A DNA stretch of 64,000 bases from the IMG/VR virus record IMGVR_UViG_3300001390_000008, positions 1 through 64,000 of that record; one strand, 5' to 3'. Of the stretch, positions 7,215-63,390 are shown piece by piece; positions within the stretch are counted from its first letter, which is position 1, and each line of letters opens with the position of its first letter. The position numbers were made by a program, and so were the translations under genes. The notes beneath the pieces are model-generated. The model was not told the origin of the DNA, made no database searches, and saw only the letters and a program-made list of their open reading frames with translations. The stretch comes from a virus.

Positions 7215-8531
7215 CTACGGATTATCTGGTGCGGCATAGGAATCAGACCCTTCTACGGAGGGGGCGGTTAATCTCAATGTACCTACCTGCTTTCTATTAA
7301 GCAGAGCAGGAGGCTTAGTATATGTTGCAATTATCGTAGCATTCTTAAATTTAACTATCCTGCCATTAATTCCTATCTCAGTATCGAAGGCATAGGGGTA
7401 TACACGGTAAGTTGTGGTATATGTAACCTTTATTAATCCTGCTATTTTTATCACAAAGCCTGCTATATCTGTAGCAACTATCTCACCTGGTTGTACAATT
7501 CTGTTTTGTGGCCTTCCCTTGTACTCACTAGGGTTAAGCCAATTAACCTCTTTTACTGTGTACCCTTCCTGCCTAAATATTACAGTAACCCTTCTGTTCC
7601 ATTGATCGACTATATCAGAATCCTCTTTTATACCCATCCTGCCCTGTGGAGGGTACTTTACATTCCTGCCATTCACCCCCTTAAAATTTATAGATTCATG
7701 TATAACCCTATAATTACCTTTTTGTGGGGTTAGCAGAGAGCCGTCTGTGACCTCTATCTTAGCCTCTACATCAGGATATACCCTTATGAGTGCAGAAGCT
7801 TCTAATACTGCGGTAGATGGCATACCTGCCTCAGTATACGTAGTTATAGCAGCAGGCCCATCTGCATCCACCTCTATCACTAGTCTCCCTACCCCACTAT
7901 TTCTACTTATATTAGCTAATTCGTATTCACACTTGGGGGCTTGTAAGGATATCGTAGCAAAGTCCCCGGAGGATGCCTCATACACCACTATTATCGCATC
8001 CTCATAAGGTATATATTTCTTAACATTTGCCCCGAAGGGGTTATATATAGACTGAGGAGATGGGGGGCCTGAATAGTCTGTTTCATAGGGGCAGCCCCAC
8101 CCCTCATAGAGAAATTTATACAATGTATATCTAGCTTTGTATGTGACCTTTATAACACCAAACCCTATTTTACTTGAGTCTATTGTATTAGTAGAGCCGT
8201 TAAACGATAAAAATGTTGTAGTTATATTTCCAGAAACATCATGGAATTTACCTAATAGCGATATAGCCACACTATAGGCTTTAGGGTAGGTTAGACGTAT
8301 CTGCTTGCTATTGGTAAAGGATAATATTTCTTCCACCTCCTTTACAGTACTTCCTAGCTTAACTAGTTGCCCTGAGCTCTCCCATACTTTCCCGGTACGT
8401 TCAGGGTAAACCCTTAGGTATTGCGTTCTTAGGGAGTACTTAGCCCGGTCATCAGCCTCTATCAGCAGAGATTGCTCTGCTGCACTACTGCTAAAATCTA
8501 CGGTAATAGTACTGGTTAGTCTCGTGCTCAT
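7215..8531 (-). CDS. tail/baseplate structural protein (438 aa)
   Basis: Long beta-rich protein with repeated strand patterns of the type VIKVTYKARYTLYKF and KVTYTTTYRVYPY, suggesting two or more related beta modules. Its start overlaps the upstream gene's stop by 4 nt (ATGA), so translation is coupled. Position and composition suggest a baseplate or distal tail subunit. No catalytic motif is visible. Confidence 0.75.
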   Translation of the reverse strand: MSTRLTSTITVDFSSSAAEQSLLIEADDRAKYSLRTQYLRVYPERTGKVWESSGQLVKLGSTVKEVEEILSFTNSKQIRLTYPKAYSVAISLLGKFHDVSGNITTTFLSFNGSTNTIDSSKIGFGVIKVTYKARYTLYKFLYEGWGCPYETDYSGPPSPQSIYNPFGANVKKYIPYEDAIIVVYEASSGDFATISLQAPKCEYELANISRNSGVGRLVIEVDADGPAAITTYTEAGMPSTAVLEASALIRVYPDVEAKIEVTDGSLLTPQKGNYRVIHESINFKGVNGRNVKYPPQGRMGIKEDSDIVDQWNRRVTVIFRQEGYTVKEVNWLNPSEYKGRPQNRIVQPGEIVATDIAGFVIKIAGLIKVTYTTTYRVYPYAFDTEIGINGRIVKFKNATIIATYTKPPALLNRKQVGTLRLTAPSVEGSDSYAAPDNP

Positions 8532-8806
8532 ACTACTTTATTACAGGATATTATATTTGTCTGCCGTAGTTGTACATCACTTGGGCGTTTTCTACTCCCA
8601 CCTCGTAATGCGGGTAGATGTCTACGGTTACCCTTTAGTTGTATTGACGGGTCATCATTTAGTTTTATTCTTTCCCTGAAGTACTCTATAGGGTTACCCA
8701 GAGTTACCCCAGGGTGGCCCCAATCTGCCTCCTCTATACCCATTTCAATCAGGTGCTGTTTTTCCTGCCGGGTGAAAGGTGCATCTTTAATTCTGGTAGT
8801 AGCCAT
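8528..8806 (-). CDS. small tail-region protein (92 aa)
   Basis: Basic soluble protein with a predicted helical N-terminus (FTRQEKQHLIEMGIEEADWGHPG) and a lysine/arginine-rich C-terminus (KGNRRHLPALRGGSRKRPS). The ATG is preceded by GAGGAAT at good spacing. That ribosome-binding site lies just downstream of one copy of the 22-bp duplication flanking the HNH gene, so this gene probably directly followed the 331-aa structural gene before the HNH gene arrived. Confidence 0.75.
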   Translation of the reverse strand: MATTRIKDAPFTRQEKQHLIEMGIEEADWGHPGVTLGNPIEYFRERIKLNDDPSIQLKGNRRHLPALRGGSRKRPSDVQLRQTNIISCNKVV

Positions 8807-8819
8807 TACGGATTCCTCA

Positions 8820-8841
8820 TGTCAACCCTAAGCAGATTCTC
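8820..8841. repeat. 22-bp direct repeat, copy at the 3' end of the HNH gene
   Basis: Copy 1 of a 22-bp near-identical repeat (2 mismatches with 9550-9571). On the minus strand both copies encode ...ESA and a TAG stop, so the HNH reading frame ends with the same residues as the structural gene it interrupts. Confidence 0.85.
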
Positions 8842-9496
8842 TACGCATTGAAGGTGTAGGAGTTGTTACCGCCTTTTTATGAGACCAGTTAAGAGCTAAC
8901 ACCCTTTTATTAATAGTGGAGCTAGGTATTCCTGTACGGCGAGACCACCCCGCTAAAGTATCCGTAACACCATCCACTGTAAGACGTACATTATTGCTTT
9001 TATTACTAGCTTGCTCTATAGAAGAAGCCCATTTACAATTACTAGGGGTGTAATCACCATTAAGGTTTTTACGTTCTAAGCTATATCCCTCTGGGCGTGG
9101 CCCCATATCTTTTAAGAATTGTGTTATATCTTCCCACCCATCACATACCTTTATCCCCCTACCACCATACCTACCCCATCTATTATTTTTAGGGTTGGTG
9201 CATCTATCATGCATGTTATGCCATATATGGTACAAAGGATGGTAACTTTTTCCGTGAGTTTTCTTCCCTACTTTTTGTAGGCACCCACATGATTTTGTAT
9301 GGCCACTTTTAAGATTATTGCCTTGTATAGTAACCCTTACCCCGCAATCACATAAACAATCCCATACAGGGGGGGAAGAGCCCTTTATGTATCTTTTTAC
9401 CAAAAGCGCATTAAATTTTTTATCGCATAAATCTATTATCCACTTCCATTGAGTACCATATCTACCCCTACCAAGATATCCTATTTTACCTTCCAT
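8828..9496 (-). CDS. HNH homing endonuclease, free-standing (222 aa)
   Basis: Phage-type HNH endonuclease. A Cys-rich N-terminal region (C47, C49, C51, C70, C72) probably binds zinc. The nuclease core carries H93/H96, the RYGGRGIKVCDGW segment near 109-121 and YSLERKNLNGDYTPSNCKWA near 138-157, typical of the family. The C-terminal ~50 residues look like a DNA-binding module. I chose the ATG at 9496 because GGAGAG lies just upstream; the frame is open for 29 more codons, which cover the flanking duplication. Role: a selfish gene that cuts an intron-less or HNH-less allele to spread. No intron is evident. Confidence 0.88.
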   Translation of the reverse strand: MEGKIGYLGRGRYGTQWKWIIDLCDKKFNALLVKRYIKGSSPPVWDCLCDCGVRVTIQGNNLKSGHTKSCGCLQKVGKKTHGKSYHPLYHIWHNMHDRCTNPKNNRWGRYGGRGIKVCDGWEDITQFLKDMGPRPEGYSLERKNLNGDYTPSNCKWASSIEQASNKSNNVRLTVDGVTDTLAGWSRRTGIPSSTINKRVLALNWSHKKAVTTPTPSMRRESA

Positions 9497-9549
9497 AATT
9501 GCTCTCCATACATTAATGAAGAACATAATATAGCTAAGAAGTATCACCG

Positions 9550-9571
9550 TGTCAATCCTAAGCGGATTCTC
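9550..9571. repeat. 22-bp direct repeat, copy at the 3' end of the structural gene
   Basis: Copy 2 of the duplication. It encodes the last residues (GESA) and stop of the 331-aa structural protein, and lies 5' of the HNH gene in the reading direction. With the copy at 8820-8841 it brackets about 730 bp containing the HNH gene. Confidence 0.85.
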
Positions 9572-10553
9572 CGTCAACCCCAACTATAACCTTATTATTC
9601 GACAAAGAAGCTGTGCCTGCTGGGATAGTCCTCTTTTGCCATATAGGTATAGCTGCTGGTGAGGTTGTAAATACCAGGGTATCCCCATTTGCAAAAACAC
9701 CGGCAAAGGCGGTATTAGTAATGGTGAAATAGGGCTTACTATAATCATTATTAGTTGGGGTAGCACCGGAACTTGTAGTGCCTGAACCCACAGAACCAAG
9801 AATATCCCCTACTATGCTGAATGAAGTAGCATCAGAAAAGGTTAGTGTCCACTGCTGCTCAACAGTGCCTATACTATCCATAGCAAGATAGACCGAATCA
9901 AAGGTTCCTGAACCCGCCACTGTAGCTACTACAGTACCATTTAGTGCCTCAACTGTCCCCGCCTGTATTACTGAGGATACTCTGGTATTTGCTGCTATAT
10001 ATCCATTAACCAGTGCGGGGGTAAAGCTTAGTGTAGCTACATCGCCTACATAGGTTACCACAGCATTGATGGTTATATATTCTTCCTTACCTACCACATC
10101 ATTGACATCTGTCATATCTGAGATGCGTACTAACATATTATTTTTGAAATAGGCTAAATTAAAATCTTCTGTAAGTACAGTAATACTCGTAACACCGGCT
10201 AATACATCTGCATCAAGAGTACCGCACCCATATTGCTGCTCAGCCCCAGATATAGCGGCCTCTGTATCCGTAGAGGTGCCCGGAAATATAGTTACAGCAT
10301 CCGCACCGGGCGTATTTGTTTCTATAAATACTCGGGTCTGTAGTAACTGTAGGTCTGCATCATTAGCTATGTGGCAATGTGATTTCCTATATTTTGTAGA
10401 TCCTGTACTTCTCTCTGACTGTGAAACATCAGGCCATAGGTTATTCTTTGCATTATCTATGATGGCATTTTTTGTCATTCTGCCGCCATTATTAGTGGTG
10501 TCGTCATTAGTTTCTGACTGGCGCCATATCATTTCTGAAGCTACGATACTCAT
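9558..10553 (-). CDS. distal tail structural protein (331 aa)
   Basis: The N-terminal ~70 residues are polar and helical, the rest is beta-rich (TFLVRISDMTD-like strands, ATLSFTPALVNGYIA, TLTFSDATSFSIVG). A VFIETNTPGADAVTIFPG segment recalls baseplate or fibre-hub proteins, but no firm family is claimed. It lies 10 nt after the small 127-aa tail gene. Its 3' end is duplicated on the far side of the HNH gene. Confidence 0.75.
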   Translation of the reverse strand: MSIVASEMIWRQSETNDDTTNNGGRMTKNAIIDNAKNNLWPDVSQSERSTGSTKYRKSHCHIANDADLQLLQTRVFIETNTPGADAVTIFPGTSTDTEAAISGAEQQYGCGTLDADVLAGVTSITVLTEDFNLAYFKNNMLVRISDMTDVNDVVGKEEYITINAVVTYVGDVATLSFTPALVNGYIAANTRVSSVIQAGTVEALNGTVVATVAGSGTFDSVYLAMDSIGTVEQQWTLTFSDATSFSIVGDILGSVGSGTTSSGATPTNNDYSKPYFTITNTAFAGVFANGDTLVFTTSPAAIPIWQKRTIPAGTASLSNNKVIVGVDGESA

Positions 10554-37310: not shown

Positions 37311-37387
37311 CTTTACGCCCCCCTTGAGTCCACTTGATTGATAACCCATTATATATCTTTGTGTCTTATGCTGTCAACTATGGTATT

Positions 37388-37807
37388 CTATATAGACGAT
37401 TCATATTTTTTTCTACGTGTACACCATTTTTTTCTACTATCGTTATACCATCTGAATATAGTACGTGATGATACCTTACAAGCTTCTGCTGCATCATCTG
37501 TTGTATTATATTCTATCCCATGTATTACCCATATAAATGACGTTGATCTATTGTTAGCTTGTTCTACACTTGTAGACCATTTACAATTATTTAAATTATA
37601 GTTACCATTATTATTTTTCCTATCTAAAGTTTTGCCCTCTGGTTTTTCCCCCATGTCTTCTAAAAAATTTTCAAATTTTTCCCATCTTTTACATACTCGT
37701 ATTCCTCTAGCCCCATAATATTTATTATTAATATTTTTAGTTCTAGTTATCATACTGCTCCATATATTGTATGTACTTGTTCCTGTCATGCGATGTGTTG
37801 TACCCAT
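37388..37807 (-). CDS. HNH endonuclease, second copy (139 aa)
   Basis: Same family as the HNH protein at 8828 but lacking its Cys-rich head: YGARGIRVCKRWEKFENFLEDMG, TLDRKNNNGNYNLNNCKWS. A C-terminal DDAAEACKVSSRTIFRWYND segment looks like a helix-turn-helix. I set the start at 37807 (GGGGGGAG upstream). The gene is strongly AT-rich compared with neighbours, a sign of recent arrival. Stands between two transcription units; no flanking duplication noticed. Confidence 0.82.
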   Translation of the reverse strand: MGTTHRMTGTSTYNIWSSMITRTKNINNKYYGARGIRVCKRWEKFENFLEDMGEKPEGKTLDRKNNNGNYNLNNCKWSTSVEQANNRSTSFIWVIHGIEYNTTDDAAEACKVSSRTIFRWYNDSRKKWCTRRKKYESSI

Positions 37808-38064
37808 TACTCCCCCCCCTTCGTTTTTATTACTATAATATACCAGTTTATTTATGTCAACTATGGTATTATATGTAGATGAATTGAAAGTGGCTATGGC
37901 GCGGAGAGTTACTACAGAAAAAATTACAGATTTTTTATGTATGGCTACGCTCAATTTATTGTAATATTATAATATACTTATATGCCAGCATGTAAGCTGA
38001 TCTAAACAATTAATTGCAGCACCCCTAATGCTACTATTAATAAAAATAGATCGTTGATTTTCAC

Positions 38065-38935: not shown

Positions 38936-39013
38936 TTATTTAAGATAGCCGTTTTTTATACAATAGATAATTGTACAAATTGCGGCCCCCGTTATTATTA
39001 ATGCAATAATCAT
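38936..39013 (-). CDS. 25-aa membrane peptide, first gene after promoter
   Basis: Short helix MIIALIITGAAICTIIYCIKNGYLK with AGGGGAAAC upstream. Lies directly after the strong promoter at 39054-39083, which argues for expression. Confidence 0.52.
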   Translation of the reverse strand: MIIALIITGAAICTIIYCIKNGYLK

Positions 39014-39111: not shown

Positions 39112-39325
39112 TTGAAATCGCTTGCAAAATAGAATATTAGAATATTAGAATTTAATTACATTATTATATTATTATATTAGAACTTAATTACATTATTACA
39201 TTAGAGTTTAATTACATTATAATATTAGAATTTAATTACATTATTATATTAGAATGTTAGAATAGTATTCAGTATACCCTGCGAGCAGTATTCGGTATGC
39301 CCTGCGAACATAACCGGGTGTCCCC
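39112..39325. repeat. AT-rich/CTGCG module, copy 1
   Basis: Palindrome variant TTGAAATCGCTTGCAA (39112-39127), then tandem AT units of the type ATTAGAATTTAATTACATT, then two units with TATACCCTGCGAGC / TATGCCCTGCGAAC. Intergenic, no open frame of note. The same architecture recurs at 40448 and 47510. Confidence 0.75.
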
Positions 39326-40447: not shown

Positions 40448-40690
40448 TTGTAATTAATTACAAGAAAACATTTTTATACGAACATAAATTTAATCTATAT
40501 TAGAATTTAATTACATTATTATATTAGAATTTAATTACATTTTGCAAGCGATTTCAAAATATTATTATATTATAATATTACTATATTATTAACAGTGAGG
40601 CGGGATTCTGCGAATGGTATTAGGTATGCCCTGCGGGGGCGAGTAGGTATAGTAAGGTATGAGGCCCGGCCCCGCGAATACTTGAGGGGG
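40448..40690. repeat. AT-rich/CTGCG module, copy 2, with two palindromes
   Basis: Perfect palindrome TTGTAATTAATTACAA (40448-40463), a ~45-nt block nearly identical to that in copy 3, ATTAGAATTTAATTACATT units, second palindrome TTGCAAGCGATTTCAA (40542-40557), then GC-rich segments with ATTCTGCGAATGG and TATGCCCTGCGGG. On the minus strand the first palindrome carries TTGTAA-17-TCTAAT, a possible promoter for the 59-aa gene. Confidence 0.75.
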
Positions 40691-41788: not shown

Positions 41789-42052
41789 TTATACACAGTA
41801 TATATTTATATGTTTACTTTCCATTGAATACCCGTGCCCGATTGACCCGCCGCCTTTAGATAATCTATGCCCTGTTTTGTCTGATATGATTTTACAGGCC
41901 TCGGCATAGTTCCCCTTAGTTGATGCTGCGTTTATTTTATCGTTATGCCCTATATATAAGGGTTTATTATGACCTAGTAACTGGTATACCATCACTGTTC
42001 GATTAAACCCTCTAGCACCCCTCTCTGATCCCATATAGATAAATGTTTTCAT
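41789..42052 (-). CDS. hypothetical protein (87 aa)
   Basis: Contains GHNDKINAASTKGNYAEACKIISDKTGHRLSKGGGSIGHGYSM, a pattern I have seen in small conserved phage proteins. Basic N-terminus with TFIYMGSERGARGFNRTVMVY. Function unknown. RBS GGGGCATATC. Confidence 0.7.
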   Translation of the reverse strand: MKTFIYMGSERGARGFNRTVMVYQLLGHNKPLYIGHNDKINAASTKGNYAEACKIISDKTGHRLSKGGGSIGHGYSMESKHINIYCV

Positions 42053-42101
42053 GATATGCCCCTATCAGTATTTGCGCCTAGATAACTGCACTATCTAGTT
42101 G

Positions 42102-42639: not shown

Positions 42640-42890
42640 ATTACCTTCCCCATATTAATAGCTTCTTGCAGTGCCTTCGCTATAGTTATTTCCAGAACAT
42701 CTCTATCTAAAACTATTTGCCCCATGAACTCATGAGACGTAACATAGCGTATACTGGTTATTTCACCACTATAGTTAGTTGTGGTTAAAATGTCGGTTAT
42801 CTGTTAGACATAACGGAGGTCTTTGATCTGCCTATTGCGATTAGTTAATCGTTGAAACTTTTGCCCTATTTTATATTTTGGTGTTTTCAT
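42636..42890 (-). pseudogene. small phage gene interrupted by an in-frame TAA
   Basis: ATG at 42890 (GGGGCATATC upstream) opens a frame that reads as one protein except for a TAA at codon 29 (42804-42806): MKTPKYKIGQKFQRL... DLRYV / QITDILTTTNYSGEI...VLDRDVLEITIAKALQEAI. It ends in an ATGA overlap with the next gene, as a working gene would. So a nonsense mutation, sequence error or readthrough; other genes here use TAA as stop. Confidence 0.65.
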
Positions 42891-42902
42891 GATATGCCCC
42901 TA

Positions 42903-43118
42903 TCAGTTATGCCCCTGCTTATACCATGACGTTTCAGCCATCCGCATACGGTACTTTTTATACCTATTACAAATTCTCCTCCGATCTTTTTTAACTGGTT
43001 TTAAGCCGTACAAATTAACTCCCTCATATTTTAGTTGCCCGTATAACTCACGTATTGGCCACAATTTTTCATCGTGTAACATACAGACATGTCCGGCAGC
43101 ATCGCGGCGCGGATTCAT
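42903..43118 (-). CDS. hypothetical basic protein (71 aa)
   Basis: Main body WPIRELYGQLKYEGVNLYGLKPVKKDRRRICNRYKKYRMRM, strongly basic. The first 14 residues overlap, in another frame, with the 32-aa frame upstream that contains CRTC, so a frameshift may separate one gene into two. Confidence 0.55.
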   Translation of the reverse strand: MNPRRDAAGHVCMLHDEKLWPIRELYGQLKYEGVNLYGLKPVKKDRRRICNRYKKYRMRMAETSWYKQGHN

Positions 43119-48112: not shown

Positions 48113-48310
48113 CTAGCCATATTCAGATATTATTTCTATTGCCCTTTTTCTTAGTAGCTTAAGACTGCTACAGATTATTTCCTCCTCAATATTTCCATTA
48201 GCCTCATACTGCAATTTGTATAGATTTACATCTATTTTAGAAATATCCACTGAATAATAAGAGAAGCCCTCTATATCTAATGTAGCTTTAAATATCGTTA
48301 TTAATGCCAT
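48113..48310 (-). CDS. hypothetical protein (65 aa)
   Basis: ALITIFKATLDIEGFSYYSVDISKID...; acidic/hydrophobic alternation suggests a small alpha/beta domain. GGGGCAGTAAAACAA precedes ATG. Not recognised. Confidence 0.65.
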   Translation of the reverse strand: MALITIFKATLDIEGFSYYSVDISKIDVNLYKLQYEANGNIEEEIICSSLKLLRKRAIEIISEYG

Positions 48311-48348
48311 TTGTTTTACTGCCCCGCCTTCTGCATATCTAGATATAT

Positions 48349-48513: not shown

Positions 48514-49230
48514 TTAGGCATCAGAAATTCTGTCCTTTGCCGTATTAAAATAATCATCATCCAATTCAATACCAATAAAATCTCTACCTGTTTTTTTGCA
48601 GGCCGCGCCAGTTGTCCCAGTCCCCATAAATGGGTCTAAAACAACTGAATCAACTTTGCTAAATAATCTAATTACTTTTTCTGCTAATTCCTGCGGAAAT
48701 ACCGCGCCATGGTCTTTGCTTACTTTCTTTCCGCGCTTTATACTCCAAACATTTGAAAGCACCCCTCTATCAAACTGTGCAGTTTTAAATGACCTGCTTT
48801 CAGGCGCACTGTTTTGAAGCACAATCAAAACCTCAAATTGGCTATTCATTACGCCTTTCCCTATTGCAGGCTGCGCGTTTAACTTATCCCATATAATAAA
48901 TTCTTTTACTTTGCCGCTAAATTCACCAAGCAGTTTAAAAAGAGCAGGTTTGTTACCTGTGAGGAATTGCACATTGTAAAAAACCAAATCAGAAACCCTT
49001 AAACACTCATTTAAAACTTTCTTGTTAAACTCAAAATAATCGTCAATAGGCAAATTATCGTCAAAGCTTTTATATTTTGTACTTATCTCTTTAACTATCT
49101 GCCTAGAGCAATATTTACCATTTCTAATCCTGAGATTCATATTGTACGGCGGGCTGGTTAATACAATATCAACACTTCCGCTTGGTATTTCTTTCATTTT
49201 TTCTAAACAATTACCTCTTAATAATTTCAT
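48514..49230 (-). CDS. DNA methyltransferase, N4/N6 type (238 aa)
   Basis: Beta-class arrangement: catalytic motif TSPPYN at 25-30, then a target region, and AdoMet motif DPFMGTGTTG at 199-208, followed by IGIELDDDYF. Modifies adenine N6 or cytosine N4. No restriction endonuclease is adjacent, so it is an orphan: anti-restriction or regulation. GAGGTAATTG precedes ATG. Confidence 0.93.
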   Translation of the reverse strand: MKLLRGNCLEKMKEIPSGSVDIVLTSPPYNMNLRIRNGKYCSRQIVKEISTKYKSFDDNLPIDDYFEFNKKVLNECLRVSDLVFYNVQFLTGNKPALFKLLGEFSGKVKEFIIWDKLNAQPAIGKGVMNSQFEVLIVLQNSAPESRSFKTAQFDRGVLSNVWSIKRGKKVSKDHGAVFPQELAEKVIRLFSKVDSVVLDPFMGTGTTGAACKKTGRDFIGIELDDDYFNTAKDRISDA

Positions 49231-49235
49231 TTGTT

Positions 49236-49586
49236 TTACTGCCTCGCCTTTTTTGCTATTTCTACTAGCTCATTCCAGTCACGATGGCCTGTGTTACAAT
49301 GCTTTATAGCTAAAACTAATAGTCTACCCCGCTCAGGTTCAAGAGAGAATATGTAATTTCTAAGCCCCTGCATTTCTGCGGTCTGTGTTCCGGCCCCGCC
49401 GCAGATACACTTCTTTCCGCTTACTGGCTTTCCCTGCCCGGCACAAACACTACACATAGCCGACTCTTTAGTACACTCTATGTGTCTCAATGTAAATTCA
49501 ACCATTTCATCCGCACCTAGATTATCCCATCTATTTAACTCATCTGCCTGCTTATTCCAGGCTTCTATAATATCGTTAATTTGCAT
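49236..49586 (-). CDS. Cys-rich protein (116 aa)
   Basis: A central CSVCAGQG...CKICGGAG-like segment (CSVCAGQGKPVSGKKCICGGAG) resembles a DnaJ-type zinc finger repeat (CxxCxGxG); a helical C-terminus follows. May bind zinc and nucleic acid or act as a chaperone adaptor. Start module GGAGCTAATTACTATG. Confidence 0.75.
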   Translation of the reverse strand: MQINDIIEAWNKQADELNRWDNLGADEMVEFTLRHIECTKESAMCSVCAGQGKPVSGKKCICGGAGTQTAEMQGLRNYIFSLEPERGRLLVLAIKHCNTGHRDWNELVEIAKKARQ

Positions 49587-53034: not shown

Positions 53035-55962
53035 TCAATGTCTATCCGTATCACTTCGCTCACCTGCATCACTTCTGCCGTCGTCATGCATATCACTATC
53101 TGTCCCCCCATTTGGCATAACCCACGAAGAGGCCCTACTAAGTAATAAATTATATGCACCACATAAAGAATCGGCTGCATCCTTTGCCCCGATTATACTA
53201 TGATCAACTTTTCCTTCTTTACCTTTATTTTCATCAAATTCTAAAGACAATAATTCTTCCAGTAGTACGGGCTGATTATATAGCAGTATGCGCCCATCAT
53301 AAAAGGCATCACGTAATTGGCGGTAAGGGGTGGGGGATCTGTCTACGGATATAAGGCCGGTCTTCATCCCCTGTCTCTTCCATGCTTGCCTGGATTCAAC
53401 ACTATTATACCCATCATAACTGACCGCCTTAATAGGATACCCATATGTGCTATATAGTAGCTTTATCCATGAACGTATATTTGCCACATCTACTTCATTA
53501 CCGTGGTCTGGCTGAACGGTCATACACATTTCCATGGATACAAGGGGCAGTGCCTCCTGCTCCCCGTCCACCCTCTCTACCCATTGTAGGCCGTCAAACC
53601 TAACCATACATATCCCTGTTCTATCTTGTGTAGAGCTTAAATCAATATGTACATATCTGGGTTTACCTGGATTACTACAAAAATGCCCCTTAATAGGTAG
53701 AGGTAGGCCTTGGTGCCTTAGTATTATGTTATCTTCCGGTAAGAAGGACTTTAAGCCCGCTTCTTCGCCTTTTGCCACACATTGCATAACCTTCTGGGGC
53801 TGCCTTATAAAAGGCGATATAGCGTTCGTAGAGAGGCCGGATATATCCCGTAGTGCTTTGGTGGGGTTTTTAACGAATTGCTCTCTGTACTCCACGGGCA
53901 CCTGTATAACGCGGCCCCCAATAGCCTTCTCATTATCCCCCATAACACGCACAGACATAGCTGCATCACTACCAATAAACAAGTTAAACTTATCCCCACA
54001 AAACCTGTTCTGCGGAACTACTTCATATTGAGCATACCCGAACACAAAAGTAGTGCTTATGTGCTCCCTGCGTACAATCTCTTCTAAGCGATCGGTGTAG
54101 TCCCCCTTGTACCTTGTAGAAGATGAGCAGATAATCATCCCCACCTGTGGGCCTGGCAGGGTAAACCGGCTTTTACGACGTGTGCTAAGGGCATCATGTA
54201 TAGCTTCTGCCTGATCATACTTAGATGATCTGCCCATACTGACGCGTACCTTCTTTGATCTCTCAATAACACTCATGAAATTTACTTCATCTATTAGAGC
54301 AAAAATCATAGCTTCGCCTAATGCCGCATCATCATCTGCCCCGCCTGGAACCACACGAATGTTTTGTTCTACAAAATACATTTCAGAATCTAATAGTTTA
54401 TCGGGCCTCATGTTCTTGCGAAACCACGGCATAGTCTCTATATACTTTCGTAGGGGGGCATAAACTACTTTCTTGGTAACGTGTGGTTTTGCCGCTTGAA
54501 TAATAAATAGAATAGAAGTAGCAGAGGGTAGGCCCCAATAGGTCTGGGGGGTTTTCATGCACCCTAATATATGCAAATGATAGGCTATTGTAATTTTAGC
54601 TAATTCCGTGTTGTGTGTGACAGTAAAATCGCCCAGCAAATATCTATGATCCCCCCCAATTACAACCCCATAATAATTACCCTTTCCTATAGGCTCTACC
54701 TTAAACCCTGTTACAAGTACATCTTTTTTCTGCCCCCTTACCGGTGCCTTTTTATTAATTGATAATGTAGGTATTAGATGACAATCGCCACTTATAAATA
54801 CACGATAATAGATGCCAGTAAATCCTGTTGATTTTATACCTTTAATTACCTCTTTCTTATATGCAGCGAACCCTAATGATCTGCATAAATAAACAGCCTG
54901 ATCTGCAAAGCATTCATCCTTAGCTATAAAATCAAACCCACCACATGATAGGCGGCCACCCCCGTCTAATATCCCGGCTAATAATTGTAATCTATTTTTC
55001 CTGCTGTTTATTAAATACTCTTTTGGTATCCTTCTTCTATGTAGATAATCCGTTAATGACTCTCTTATATCGGCAAATCCCAAAAGGCTAATATCCCATG
55101 CACCTCTGTCGTAGTTTACCTGTCCTATCTGTACATGCTTCTTTACCCGCTCTAGGCAAAGTAATTTATTACCCCCCAAAGACAGAGCACTACGGTATTT
55201 ACAACCATCCGCTAAATACAGACCTATGGTGTAAGGGTCAAATACTTTAATCTCCAGGAACTCTACGCCTACACGATATTGTTTATGCAAGTGTTTAAAT
55301 GTCTTTGATTTATTCAAATATTCTTTTACTGTAATATTTACTATATCCCCTGCATACCTGTCCCCACTTCTTATTTTAGTACGTTTAAGGCTCAGTATAT
55401 GATCTGCATTACATGTCCATGATTCCCCTTTAACAGGGGTAATACGGTACATATCGCCATAACTTTCATTAGCTTGTAATACTGGTTGCGGGTTTGACTC
55501 CGGCCCCATTAAAACATCGCCCTTGTTTATATTCTGGGATAGCTTTATACCCCCATCATATAATAGTACAGGGACGTCCACCCCTAAGCACTTTCCGGTA
55601 CCTGTTGCGCGAGAGAATATAGCCTGGTCATAATGTTTATCCGCGCCTTTCCACCAATGGCTATTAAGCTCAATAACCGCCTCTCTTACTTTAGGCCATA
55701 GTTTTAGATCTGTGGAGCCCATAAACTGATCAGAATCTATAAATTCTTCTATGGATACGGGGGGCTGTTTTAAGTGTTCTATGAAATTTAAAAAGTTATG
55801 GTTATTATGCATTGCTGCTTGCTTTATTGCATGAACATAAAATTCAGCAAACATTTTATTATTTAATGTACTAACAGAGGCCTCGGCAGCATCTATCATT
55901 AACTGCGCTTTTCTTGTCAGATTACCGCTCTGGGTAGCCAACTTTCTTTTACGTCTAGTCAC
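53035..55962 (-). CDS. terminase large subunit with P-loop intein (975 aa precursor)
   Basis: DNA-packaging ATPase/nuclease. Precursor carries an intein at residues 125-451; the spliced protein would be ~648 aa. The P-loop reads GTGK (residues 121-124) and, after splicing, T; Walker B is ALIDEVNF. The nuclease part has YVHIDLSS, SYDGYNSVESRQ and a late DAADSLCG acidic motif. Follows the small terminase by 47 nt. Start MTRRKRK. Far (28 kb) from portal, which is unusual. Confidence 0.96.
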   Translation of the reverse strand: MTRRKRKLATQSGNLTRKAQLMIDAAEASVSTLNNKMFAEFYVHAIKQAAMHNNHNFLNFIEHLKQPPVSIEEFIDSDQFMGSTDLKLWPKVREAVIELNSHWWKGADKHYDQAIFSRATGTGKCLGVDVPVLLYDGGIKLSQNINKGDVLMGPESNPQPVLQANESYGDMYRITPVKGESWTCNADHILSLKRTKIRSGDRYAGDIVNITVKEYLNKSKTFKHLHKQYRVGVEFLEIKVFDPYTIGLYLADGCKYRSALSLGGNKLLCLERVKKHVQIGQVNYDRGAWDISLLGFADIRESLTDYLHRRRIPKEYLINSRKNRLQLLAGILDGGGRLSCGGFDFIAKDECFADQAVYLCRSLGFAAYKKEVIKGIKSTGFTGIYYRVFISGDCHLIPTLSINKKAPVRGQKKDVLVTGFKVEPIGKGNYYGVVIGGDHRYLLGDFTVTHNTELAKITIAYHLHILGCMKTPQTYWGLPSATSILFIIQAAKPHVTKKVVYAPLRKYIETMPWFRKNMRPDKLLDSEMYFVEQNIRVVPGGADDDAALGEAMIFALIDEVNFMSVIERSKKVRVSMGRSSKYDQAEAIHDALSTRRKSRFTLPGPQVGMIICSSSTRYKGDYTDRLEEIVRREHISTTFVFGYAQYEVVPQNRFCGDKFNLFIGSDAAMSVRVMGDNEKAIGGRVIQVPVEYREQFVKNPTKALRDISGLSTNAISPFIRQPQKVMQCVAKGEEAGLKSFLPEDNIILRHQGLPLPIKGHFCSNPGKPRYVHIDLSSTQDRTGICMVRFDGLQWVERVDGEQEALPLVSMEMCMTVQPDHGNEVDVANIRSWIKLLYSTYGYPIKAVSYDGYNSVESRQAWKRQGMKTGLISVDRSPTPYRQLRDAFYDGRILLYNQPVLLEELLSLEFDENKGKEGKVDHSIIGAKDAADSLCGAYNLLLSRASSWVMPNGGTDSDMHDDGRSDAGERSDTDRH
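54610..55590 (-). other. TerL intein, class 1 with LAGLIDADG domain (327 aa)
   Basis: Starts with Cys, ends with His-Asn before Thr (+1). Block B is CNADHILSL and the C-terminal block is YYGVVIGGDHRYLLGDFTVTHN-like (two halves). Endonuclease motifs: TIGLYLADG (intein residues 121-129) keeps its Asp, but LAGILDGGG (204-212) has Gly where the second catalytic Asp should be. Splicing residues are intact. Insertion separates the P-loop Lys from the Thr. Confidence 0.92.
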
Positions 55963-60528: not shown

Positions 60529-60882
60529 TTATCTCTCTATAAAATGTAGTGCATAAGTAGGAATAATAGCTATCTCCATCTCGGGGGCTCCCCTTTCATC
60601 AATGAACTCTATAACTATGGCTGGTATCTCTGTATTACATAGAGCAGCCTCCTCTATCTTGTTAAGCATATCTCTGGTAACACTAAATGATTTATTCTTA
60701 GTAGTCTTTGCCTCTATGCGGATAATACCATAGCACCCTTTAACATCACCTTTTTGGTGCCCAGACCCAGAACCGGGAACTAATGCACCTTTAAACCTAT
60801 TTGCTAATTCTAGCTCCTGTTTGGGGGAGCGTACATGGGATACACTCTGCTTACCCCGTTCGCTTTTAGGTATCTTAAGCAT
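60529..60882 (-). CDS. small PD-(D/E)XK nuclease-like protein (117 aa)
   Basis: GSGHQKGDVKGCYGIIRIEAKTTKNKSF: D..(8-12)..ExK pattern plus preceding basic helix typical of archaeal-resolvase- or VRR-like folds. Could resolve junctions or nick DNA in the recombination block. One-base overlap with RecA stop region. Confidence 0.72.
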   Translation of the reverse strand: MLKIPKSERGKQSVSHVRSPKQELELANRFKGALVPGSGSGHQKGDVKGCYGIIRIEAKTTKNKSFSVTRDMLNKIEEAALCNTEIPAIVIEFIDERGAPEMEIAIIPTYALHFIER

Positions 60883-63062
60883 TAAGTAATCCTACATATA
60901 AACTCATTAGGCATACCTAACTTTTCTGCCTGCTTGCGTATAATGTGGGTACGTAATTCCCAATATATATCGGGCTCCTCACGTAACATTTGTATAGCAT
61001 CTTCCTGTAGACTAAACTTAGTTTTATAGTCTAGAAATTCTAACCACTGATTTGCCCCCGCCCCACCCACAAAACCAAACTTCTTTGCTACTGAAAATAC
61101 AGTACGTGCATCATCTACATCCCCTACACCCATACCTGTTTTTTCATCAGGATCCCTTATTATAGTAAACTCACCTGTGCGAGGGCCGTTATTCATTTTA
61201 TTTTTAGTTATAGTATATGAATGTTCATTATGTGTGATGGTTTCCATTGCATTAGTATCGTTACCTTTTATCTCCCTATTTTTCATAATAATATCAAAAC
61301 TAGTAGCGTGGCCCAGCGCCCGGCCCCCTGGAACCTTTCTAGGGTTCATACCATGACCTCCAATATCACTCCTAAATTGATTGGTATTAACTAGTGTTAC
61401 GTAGTGATTTCGCCGCCTTTCCTCTATCATAATAGAAGTAGTCTTGCGTACAAACTCTGCAATAAGCCTGGCGTGGAAGGCAACAAGATGATCTTCTGCG
61501 CTGGATTCTCTTTCTTTCATTGGTTCCATAGCTGCGATAGAATCTACGACTACTAGGGAGGTTTCTACGGACTGTAGTATAGCATCTGCAATATCAAGTG
61601 CCATCTCACCTGTCTCGCATTCAATAACCTCTAAAGCATCTATATCCACCCCCAACTTTTCTGCCCATACACTTTCAAAAGTACCTTCGGTGTCTAGTAC
61701 AATAACTTTTTGATCTGGAAATTGCCTCTGTGCATTAGCTATTATCTTATTAGACAACATACTATTATGTGTAACTATATAGTCTTGTGTAATGTATAAA
61801 TTGTCTTCTGCCTCAATGCTAATACAGACCATATCACAATCTTCATCTGGCACTATATGTGAGATGGATCTTACTGGCCCTCTACGCTTTCTACCGCCAT
61901 AAGCCTCTACCTTTTTCTTACACGCCTTAAATGTGGGCACCCCCAAAGGCAGCACAATAGAAACTGTTTGCTCGTACACCTCATCTTCTTCTCTGTAACT
62001 TTGACTAATAGATGCAGTTCCCCCTAGTGACTGGGCTAACTCCTGAACACCTAATGCTAATTGCCTTGAGTACGAGTGATATCTAGCCCCTGCATAATGT
62101 TTATCTTCTTCCTTATTTAAATATACTGTAGACCCATCACAATCCATTAACCCGTTTAATAAAGAAATTCTGTCATCAATAGAGGCTCTTAAGTAGACTT
62201 CTGGGATAAACTTATCCCTAGATAATTTTCCCCATATACCTAAAACTCTAAGACTACTTATTGTCGTATTCCTTTTCTTTTTTTCTACATCAAATACCTT
62301 CCAGTGTCTAGTACCCTCCACGTAGGTTCTTTCTGCTACGATTACCCCACTGCCTCGTATTAGGCTATTTACATAAGCTAAAACATCTACATCATTTGTT
62401 GCTATATCTATACTCCCGGCCAAATTACCATTAGCTAACATTACCCCCATAAGGTAAGGGTTTATAGGTAGATTCTCACTATCAAAAACCACAGGAGATA
62501 CCAAAGGTATCCTATATTTACACATACCAGAATTCTTATCCCTTAGCCTACTATGAAATAATTCATCAGTTGTTTTTATAAAATGATTACCTGAGGTATG
62601 CGCTTGTTTCCTAGACTGAACATGCCATAGATGATCTTTCCCAACTACAAGCTCAGACTTATCAGTAAACGCTACTTTGTATGTGTGTATTCGCCCTCTC
62701 GGATATACTCCCGTGACTCTGGTTGCATGTCCGTCTGCCCCAATAACTAAATCGCCTACGGACAAATCTCCAAATAAACACCACCCATCAGGGGTCAGTA
62801 TATTATCCGTATATTTTTGGGCCTTCCCACAGTGTTTTTCCCCGAGTATGTGTGAGGATCTACTACACCCTATTCCACCTAGTGTTGAAAAATCTAGAAC
62901 AAAGATGCCCATAGAAATTCTATCTGGCTGTAGTATCTGCGAGCCCTTCCTTACAGAAGTATCCCCATACCTTTTTCTGACTTGATTTAGTGTATCCTTT
63001 AGCTCATTAGTCTTTTTTTCTTTCTTAACTGACTTCTTAGTAGACTTTCTACGCCTAGCCAT
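60882..63062 (-). CDS. recA: RecA recombinase with P-loop intein (726 aa precursor)
   Basis: Phage RecA/UvsX-like strand-exchange ATPase. P-loop GEKHCGK, interrupted before its Ser; Walker B SLVVVDSIAAM; ATP-sensing and pairing segments (LVNTNQFRSDIGG, PGGRALGHATS) follow. Spliced length ~373 aa. Start at MARRRKS (GAGAG upstream), with an 8-nt overlap with the upstream gene; a longer frame exists but lacks an RBS. Basic N-terminus. Confidence 0.95.
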   Translation of the reverse strand: MARRRKSTKKSVKKEKKTNELKDTLNQVRKRYGDTSVRKGSQILQPDRISMGIFVLDFSTLGGIGCSRSSHILGEKHCGKAQKYTDNILTPDGWCLFGDLSVGDLVIGADGHATRVTGVYPRGRIHTYKVAFTDKSELVVGKDHLWHVQSRKQAHTSGNHFIKTTDELFHSRLRDKNSGMCKYRIPLVSPVVFDSENLPINPYLMGVMLANGNLAGSIDIATNDVDVLAYVNSLIRGSGVIVAERTYVEGTRHWKVFDVEKKKRNTTISSLRVLGIWGKLSRDKFIPEVYLRASIDDRISLLNGLMDCDGSTVYLNKEEDKHYAGARYHSYSRQLALGVQELAQSLGGTASISQSYREEDEVYEQTVSIVLPLGVPTFKACKKKVEAYGGRKRRGPVRSISHIVPDEDCDMVCISIEAEDNLYITQDYIVTHNSMLSNKIIANAQRQFPDQKVIVLDTEGTFESVWAEKLGVDIDALEVIECETGEMALDIADAILQSVETSLVVVDSIAAMEPMKERESSAEDHLVAFHARLIAEFVRKTTSIMIEERRRNHYVTLVNTNQFRSDIGGHGMNPRKVPGGRALGHATSFDIIMKNREIKGNDTNAMETITHNEHSYTITKNKMNNGPRTGEFTIIRDPDEKTGMGVGDVDDARTVFSVAKKFGFVGGAGANQWLEFLDYKTKFSLQEDAIQMLREEPDIYWELRTHIIRKQAEKLGMPNEFICRIT
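61764..62822 (-). other. RecA intein, class 3 type, with LAGLIDADG domain (353 aa)
   Basis: First residue is Ala, not Cys/Ser. The W/C/T signature of class 3 inteins is present: W66 in block B (GKDHLWHV), C333 in block F (MVCISIEAED) and T351 before the final His-Asn; Ser is +1. Endonuclease motifs: LMGVMLANG (124-132) has Asn at the catalytic Asp position while LNGLMDCDG (222-230) retains Asp. Inserted at the same P-loop position as the TerL intein. Confidence 0.92.
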
Positions 63063-63390
63063 TATCACTCTCAGTACTAATGTACTGCTCCACTTCATTC
63101 TCAAGCATCTCACTTACCTGATCTGCAATAGCCTCATAAGTCTCGTTCACCATTTCTTTATAACATGGCATCATAATAGATACATCTACCCGCAGGAACT
63201 CATACTGAGCTAAACTACGCGTTACCCCTGCCTTAACACTGACATAGGCGGGATCGACATCAAACACTTCAACCTCTTTTGTTACTAGTTCGGTTTCCTC
63301 GCCCTTTACTACTGAAGTAGTTACCGTCTTTGTAGACATAACTACTATCTTTTCCTTACTTTTTCTCTTACGCTTTTTCCGCTCTGCCAT
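63055..63390 (-). CDS. conserved phage protein upstream of recA (111 aa)
   Basis: Basic head (ERKKRKRKSKEK) then VKAGVTRSLAQYEFLRVDVSIMMPCYKEMVNETYEAIADQVSEMLENEVEQYI, matching a conserved phage protein with V.AG.T.....E..RVDV. Its role is not known; adjacency to recA suggests recombination/replication. Stop overlaps the recA start by 8 nt. Confidence 0.75.
   Translation of the reverse strand: MAERKKRKRKSKEKIVVMSTKTVTTSVVKGEETELVTKEVEVFDVDPAYVSVKAGVTRSLAQYEFLRVDVSIMMPCYKEMVNETYEAIADQVSEMLENEVEQYISTESDNG

Follow-up and report, generated by a model that had tools for sequence, protein, structure and literature searches.

A free-standing HNH endonuclease gene bracketed by two copies of a neighbouring gene end in a virus genome

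Results

Organization of the HNH1 locus

The window analysed here comprises bases 1-64000 of the 93,804-base virus record IMGVR_UViG_3300001390_000008, and the features of the HNH1 locus all lie on its minus strand. Gene A (9558..10553), recognized as an open reading frame with a PHROG match, codes for a 331-aa protein of phrog_6128 (unknown function) that ends in GVDGESA-stop. It is located two genes downstream of the tape-measure gene; HNH1 (8828..9496) lies within the tail operon. The 3' end of gene A, its stop codon and a -35 hexamer, TTGACA (9555-9550), together form the proximal copy of a 22-nt direct repeat (GAGAATCCGCTTAGGATTGACA, 9550..9571), while the distal copy (GAGAATCTGCTTAGGGTTGACA, 8820..8841) comprises the end and stop of HNH1, followed again by TTGACA. 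The copies are identical at 20 of 22 positions, with identity ending at both edges, and in each the ESA codons and stop share the reading frame of the protein that they terminate, GVDGESA-stop in gene A and SMRRESA-stop in HNH1, whose last three codons are those of the repeat. HNH1 starts at the ATG at 9496, which has a good RBS (TGGAGAGCAATTATG), and is a free-standing HNH endonuclease gene of 222 aa. Directly after the distal copy the sequence reads TGAGGA (8814..8819), the RBS of an open reading frame for a 92-aa protein of unknown function (8528..8806), the ATG of which follows. The original prediction had described an HNH gene bracketed by a 22-bp duplicated end of the preceding gene, with ESA-stop in both copies, 2 of 22 bases different and the RBS of the neighbour right after the distal copy; the coordinates, identity and reading frames bear out this anatomy, including the position of TGAGGA at 8819-8814.

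Inside the repeats, the HNH1 reading frame is preceded by only 53 nt and followed by none, so that no intron fits, and the reading frame of gene A is complete before HNH1. A search with Rfam revealed neither a group I intron nor another known RNA within or near the HNH gene, which therefore stands outside any intron or intein. As in the mobile ORFs considered below, the upstream gene is completed by an extra end and the other end lies downstream of the ORF, with ESA-stop in both copies. Even with up to 6 mismatches allowed, the 22-nt repeat has no further occurrence in the 93.8-kb record, and its score at the HNH1 junctions was 16, compared to a maximum of 11 for random position pairs (up to 60) in the same stretch.

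The HNH1 and HNH2 proteins

A family search revealed two HNH genes in the virus. HNH1 matched PHROG_374 ("HNH endonuclease") with an E-value of 9.6e-59 and a second PHROG_374/PHROG_3377 profile with 9.4e-51, and HNH2 matched the PHROG_374/PHROG_3377 profiles with 2.8e-33 and 2.4e-35; on the basis of these profiles, both are assigned to the phage HNH endonuclease family PHROG_374/3377. Pfam and NCBIfam gave no HNH match or no model for HNH1. Its layout consists of an N-terminal part with CxC/CGC motifs resembling a zinc-binding site, an HNH core and C-terminal HTH-like helices, whereas HNH2 (139 aa) lacks the N-terminal part. The AlphaFold2 model of HNH1 reached a pLDDT of 87, and, in the comparison for a His-Me finger fold, the only solved structure matching it with Z of at least 5 was the HNH enzyme PacI (Z 6.1, rmsd 3.0, 76 residues, over residues 82-171). 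A Foldseek search with HNH1 gave nothing significant, and sequence searches retrieved no solved structure for it. In the phage records OR602703, OR640346 and PP758848 (H21, H23 and H16), HNH proteins of the PHROG_374 type are labelled deoxyuridine 5'-triphosphate nucleotidohydrolase, which is likely a propagated misannotation.

A second bracketed HNH gene and other repeat pairs

The second HNH gene of the virus, HNH2 (37388..37807, minus strand), is also bracketed by a direct repeat, in this case of 25 nt with 2 mismatches. Its proximal copy (TCTACATATAATACCATAGTTGACA, 37855..37879, minus strand) ends in the -35 hexamer TTGACA and its distal copy (TCTATATAGAATACCATAGTTGACA, 37372..37396, minus strand) overlaps the HNH2 stop; overlap of the distal copy with the HNH stop codon is thus common to both cases. 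The whole record was scanned for pairs of direct repeats that match at 20 or more of 22 positions and lie 0.2-6 kb apart, with AT-rich pairs excluded. Only six pairs were found in 93.8 kb, and two of them bracket exactly the two HNH genes of the virus, for which reason the bracketing of HNH1 is not due to chance.

Four pairs lie elsewhere. Copies of a 31-nt gene-start/RBS segment (GGCRGGGCAGTAAAACAAATG, 48302-48332 and 49222-49252) flank a DNA methyltransferase gene (49230-48514) and a small gene, and 31-nt RBS/start copies (ACTGATAGGGGCATATCATGAAAACA, 42042-42072 and 42880-42910) flank several small ORFs; neither cassette contains an HNH gene. The remaining two pairs, at 39010/41382 and at record positions 75160/78366, share at least 20/22 identity and are unexplained. 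AT-rich repeat arrays with a unit like ATATTAGAATTTAATTACATT occupy 39140-39240 and 40495-40540, in a gene-poor region. Two further ORFs of the window carry apparent inteins: that of the large terminase (53035-55962; CLGVD...VTHNT), to which phage relatives align as two separate pieces, together 65% of the query, and a RecA-like one (60882-63113; AQKYTDNILTPDGW...YITQDYIVTHNS).

Predicted promoters and a hairpin at the RBS of HNH1

Both the HNH1 and the HNH2 repeats end exactly at the -35 hexamer TTGACA. At HNH1, a -10 hexamer, TATATT (9527..9532, minus strand), follows 17 nt after the proximal TTGACA, forming a candidate sigma-70-like promoter with an 11/12 consensus match. At HNH2, the proximal TTGACA is likewise followed after 17 nt by TATAGT (37837-37832, minus strand; 11/12), and the distal one after 18 nt by TATAAT (37353-37348, minus strand), a 12/12 match to the consensus and a putative promoter for the downstream sequence. 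Both HNH2 and the sequence downstream of it would thus keep a promoter. No -10 box follows the distal copy of HNH1. Consensus matches of at least 11/12 number eight in 93.8 kb, three of which are at the HNH1 and HNH2 repeats.

In read-through RNA from gene A, a predicted hairpin with a 10-bp stem and a 6-nt loop (9500..9525, minus strand) pairs the whole HNH1 RBS. Its dG is -11.5 kcal/mol, a stability reached by none of 500 shuffles, and its z of -4.5 is below those of all 74 other gene starts compared in the window. The predicted transcription start of HNH1, at about 9520, lies inside the 5' arm of the hairpin, such that RNA initiated there would lose part of the arm and the RBS would open: in predicted folding, the unpaired probability of the RBS is 0.0 in the read-through RNA, compared to 0.3-0.9 for starts at 9521-9517. 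The hairpin would accordingly block translation from read-through RNA of the tail operon and restrict it to RNA from the gene's own predicted promoter. There is no hairpin at the HNH2 start, and as a family-wide trait the RBS hairpin was rejected (6.4% of the family below z -2, versus 5.3% of control genes).

Survey of other HNH loci

The bracketing repeat is not a universal mark of the HNH family; none was found in a first panel of 20 phage or IMG/VR loci, and few in a set of 223 non-redundant HNH loci. In this larger set, repeats spanning both ends of the HNH gene were compared with repeats at randomly chosen positions of these loci. Bracketing repeats exceeded chance, with three loci at a score of at least 14 (0.22 expected) and seven at a score of at least 12 (2.2 expected). 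About 97% of the surveyed loci have no such repeat, and in this most PHROG_374/PHROG_3377 members surveyed differ from HNH1 and HNH2; the repeat-free majority may reflect age or another route.

Three loci of the survey, L044, L189 and L159, which come from phages unrelated to this virus, are clearly bracketed, and the duplicated piece is a 3' gene end in the first and a 5' gene end in the other two. In L044, the preceding gene ends in WENRKIDRND-stop, and the distal copy, which closely follows the HNH stop, would encode WENRKKDTP-stop, its stop overlapping the next ATG. L123, which is 98% identical to L044, has the same layout and also carries the HNH gene, yet the ATG is absent within its repeat, which supports a later start for the next gene. 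Two different HNH genes stand side by side in L044 (1856-3473), separated by one small gene, the first of them being bracketed by the 22-nt duplicated gene end. In L189 (1465-2064), a Comamonas genome contig, the N-terminus of the HNH protein, MITLTLPYPVS, is a captured rusA start, and a complete rusA gene follows (RusA Pfam E 7.5e-19). In L159 (1352-2846), the HNH gene stands between a 25-codon 5' stub of a Glyco_hydro_108 gene, on its upstream side, and the complete gene, downstream of it. No promoter like that of HNH1 was found at the repeats of L044, L189 or L159.

Divergence of the repeat copies

The copies of a repeat differ by 8-13%. Among the 16 coding differences pooled over HNH1, L044, L189 and L159, 14 are synonymous; of the other two, one is a GTG/TTG start codon. 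The synonymous excess is significant (P 4e-8, or 6e-4 with a generous expectation of 45%). HNH1 contributes a single coding difference, which is silent, and HNH2 has none that can be scored, while in L159 every difference is silent except that in the start codon. Duplications of the transposon type would be identical or differ at random, which is not the pattern of these four loci. Neither a dead stub nor an HNH N-terminus would be expected to preserve the amino acids of a neighbour; the copies therefore most likely diverged while they were ends of functional genes. The synonymous excess thus indicates that they are probably not a fresh duplicate, but two diverged alleles, donor and resident, from different phages, joined by recombination. 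For HNH1 itself this reading is an extension by analogy, the main support for a donor allele coming from L159 and L189, both of which are 5'-end cases.

Relatives and the empty site

No close kin of the virus were found in the collections searched; its terminase shares 47% identity with the terminases of SM1, PaMx31 and similar Pseudomonas phages. An HNH-less relative of the HNH1 or HNH2 locus was found neither in phage DNA, nor by the repeat pattern in viral contigs, nor among protein relatives, and the DNA of the HNH1 locus in particular had no match in phages, nor its repeat pattern in viral contigs. The pre-insertion state at the two loci is therefore a reconstruction. Relatives of gene A are at most 44% identical, and the nearest (L001, 44%) has no HNH gene, different downstream genes and a different C-terminus; the 92-aa gene had no relatives in the searches. 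For the L044 empty site only L123 was retrieved, in which the HNH gene is also present, and a search of 120 genomes for L159 gave distant matches only. For the whole L189 locus, no HNH-less close copy occurs among 299 genomes of its family, where only rusA homologues were found. Three genomes related to L189 have rusA genes without HNH, starting MI.LTLPYPISAN.YW, in which the start is present in one copy. At L189, and only by analogy for HNH1, the comparison with HNH-less relatives that had been proposed as a check thus comes out as the insertion reading would have it.

Discussion

Proposed route of insertion

On balance, the anatomy of these loci makes it rather probable that HNH1 and HNH2 are free-standing homing-type genes which arrived by break repair together with the neighbouring gene end or promoter of a donor, leaving the native end downstream. 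Cleavage close to a gene end or promoter would be followed by recombinational repair, in which the upstream side of the break would be elongated using as template a donor with the HNH gene beside its own allele of the neighbouring sequence. Copying would end beyond HNH and join the resident DNA, and the gene end or promoter start of the resident would stay downstream. The presumed single-copy junction, in which gene A meets the 92-aa gene without HNH, would read ...GTTGACGGAGAATCYGCTTAGGRTTGACATGAGGAATCC... The proximal repeat, which now terminates gene A, would then be of the donor type and the distal one of the resident type; HNH1 would have lost its own stop codon and would continue into what is left of the resident end (RRESA-stop). 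The invaded gene would remain whole, the next gene would keep its RBS and, at HNH2, also its predicted promoter, and the HNH promoter would be assembled from the -35 of the shared repeat and a -10 from the insert. The nuclease activity of HNH1 and HNH2, the transcription starts, the order of events, the donor and the cut are all deduced here from sequence.

The original prediction had proposed an insertion that leaves the host protein intact and needs no intron. This part fits the anatomy and the lack of an intron, and it recurs at HNH2 and L044, as well as at L189 and L159 with 5' ends; the idea that the copies are a fresh duplicate made by the insertion does not hold up against the synonymous differences. 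In contrast to ordinary homing, the empty site is rebuilt, across 22 bp or more, by the distal copy and the sequence that follows it; a short target would hence still be cut, and its splitting could not by itself protect the carrier. Resistance of the carrier would have to derive from the two mismatches, from a target that extends further upstream or from one located elsewhere, as in T4 intronless homing.

A more far-reaching possibility, which we regard as doubtful, is that HNH genes carry the gene end or promoter of a neighbour as landing homology, which would also restore the invaded gene and supply the -35 of their own promoter, with the RBS hairpin silencing RNA from the host operon.

Alternative explanations

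The two copies could also stem from the insertion itself, in the manner of a transposon, if the HNH enzyme nicked both strands about 22-27 bp apart, HNH DNA were joined and fill-in produced two copies. The similar repeat lengths in four cases (22, 25, 22 and 23 nt) suit such a scheme, as does the fact that several HNH homing enzymes are nickases, such as I-PfoP3I (PMC3428280). It is nevertheless unlikely, in view of the 8-13% divergence and its synonymous bias, which extends to L159, with a dead stub as one copy, and to L189, with an HNH N-terminus as one copy, of the L159 repeat of at least 36 nt, and of the lack of a transposase or of any shared terminal sequence beyond TTGACA. Alternatively, the copies may have come first, by local duplication or mosaic phage recombination, with HNH placed between them later or by nuclease-free illegitimate recombination. 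The HNH-less cassettes bracketed in the same genome (48302/49222 around the DNA methyltransferase, and 42042/42880) favour this order, and they imply that insertion may proceed without the enzyme; joining could reflect phage recombination in general, in which HNH genes often travel as passengers. Against it stand the bracketing of both HNH genes, with just four further pairs in 93.8 kb, and the HNH-linked excess over random positions in the 223-locus survey, which make it decidedly unlikely.

The repeat might instead be kept as a regulatory site, the HNH protein binding the shared sequence upstream of the -35 and repressing its own promoter, with the insertion history being secondary. Both repeats do end at TTGACA with an 11/12 predicted promoter, and passages of a review describe I-TevI as repressing its own late promoter via an operator that resembles its homing site (PMC2988022). 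Yet the HNH1 and HNH2 repeats have only about RTTGACA in common, the distal copy of HNH1 has no -10, and the repeats of L044, L189 and L159 lack such a promoter, all of which render this explanation very improbable.

Comparison with known mobile genes

The closest parallel is found in the mobile ORFs of fungal mitochondria, in which an inserted foreign C-terminus completes the gene, an endonuclease ORF follows and the native C-terminus lies beyond (PMC3630166). In atp6 of Allomyces macrogynus and in atp6, atp9, cox2 and nad3 of Glomus, as at HNH1, an endonuclease ORF stands at the 3' end of a gene, with the extra end upstream and the native end downstream, and the copies, like those of the phage loci, differ mostly at silent sites (PMC3630166). 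These elements differ in that they carry LAGLIDADG-type ORFs and involve roughly 50-280 nt (PMC3630166), compared to phage DNA, an HNH gene and a gene end of about 22 nt in the present case. The phage HNH gene also has its own RBS and a predicted promoter, and 5' ends are used at other loci.

The free-standing Seg and Mob genes of phage T4, which act by intronless homing, likewise lie between conserved phage genes, and, as predicted for the HNH loci, promoters of the neighbours occur near or in the endonuclease gene and the timing of the endonuclease is controlled, as passages of the review describe (PMC2988022). The cleavage sites in T4 intronless homing are there placed up to hundreds of bp away, and the review passages on Seg and Mob contain no bracketing gene-end duplication (PMC2988022). 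The predicted control of HNH1 resembles that of I-TevI in the T4 td intron, whose RBS is, in those passages, sequestered by a hairpin in read-through RNA and accessible in RNA from its own promoter (PMC2988022). For HNH1, however, such control is predicted only, the gene is free-standing and the promoter is sigma-70-like, whereas that of I-TevI is described in the same passages as a T4 late promoter (PMC2988022). Among Cluster J mycobacteriophages, the HNH genes Courthouse 46 and Omega 51 are also inserted between phage genes, and in Omega the upstream gene acquired a new 3' end (PMC3706429). These insertions were precise or involved a 35-bp loss (PMC3706429), in contrast to the duplicated end described here. 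Literature searches found no paper on phage HNH insertion with gene-end duplication.

Conclusions

How free-standing homing genes arrive at new phage sites without harm to the host gene is poorly known. The duplicated ends offer a sequence signature of the event which can be searched for at large scale, gives the junctions to the base and points to donor alleles, and the bracketed loci provide concrete substrates for cleavage and transfer tests. The pattern ties phage HNH genes to the mobile ORFs of fungal mitochondria. If the gene ends and promoters were carried by the HNH genes as landing homology, these would represent a compact, self-regulating and intronless mobile gene, with a general route to new sites.
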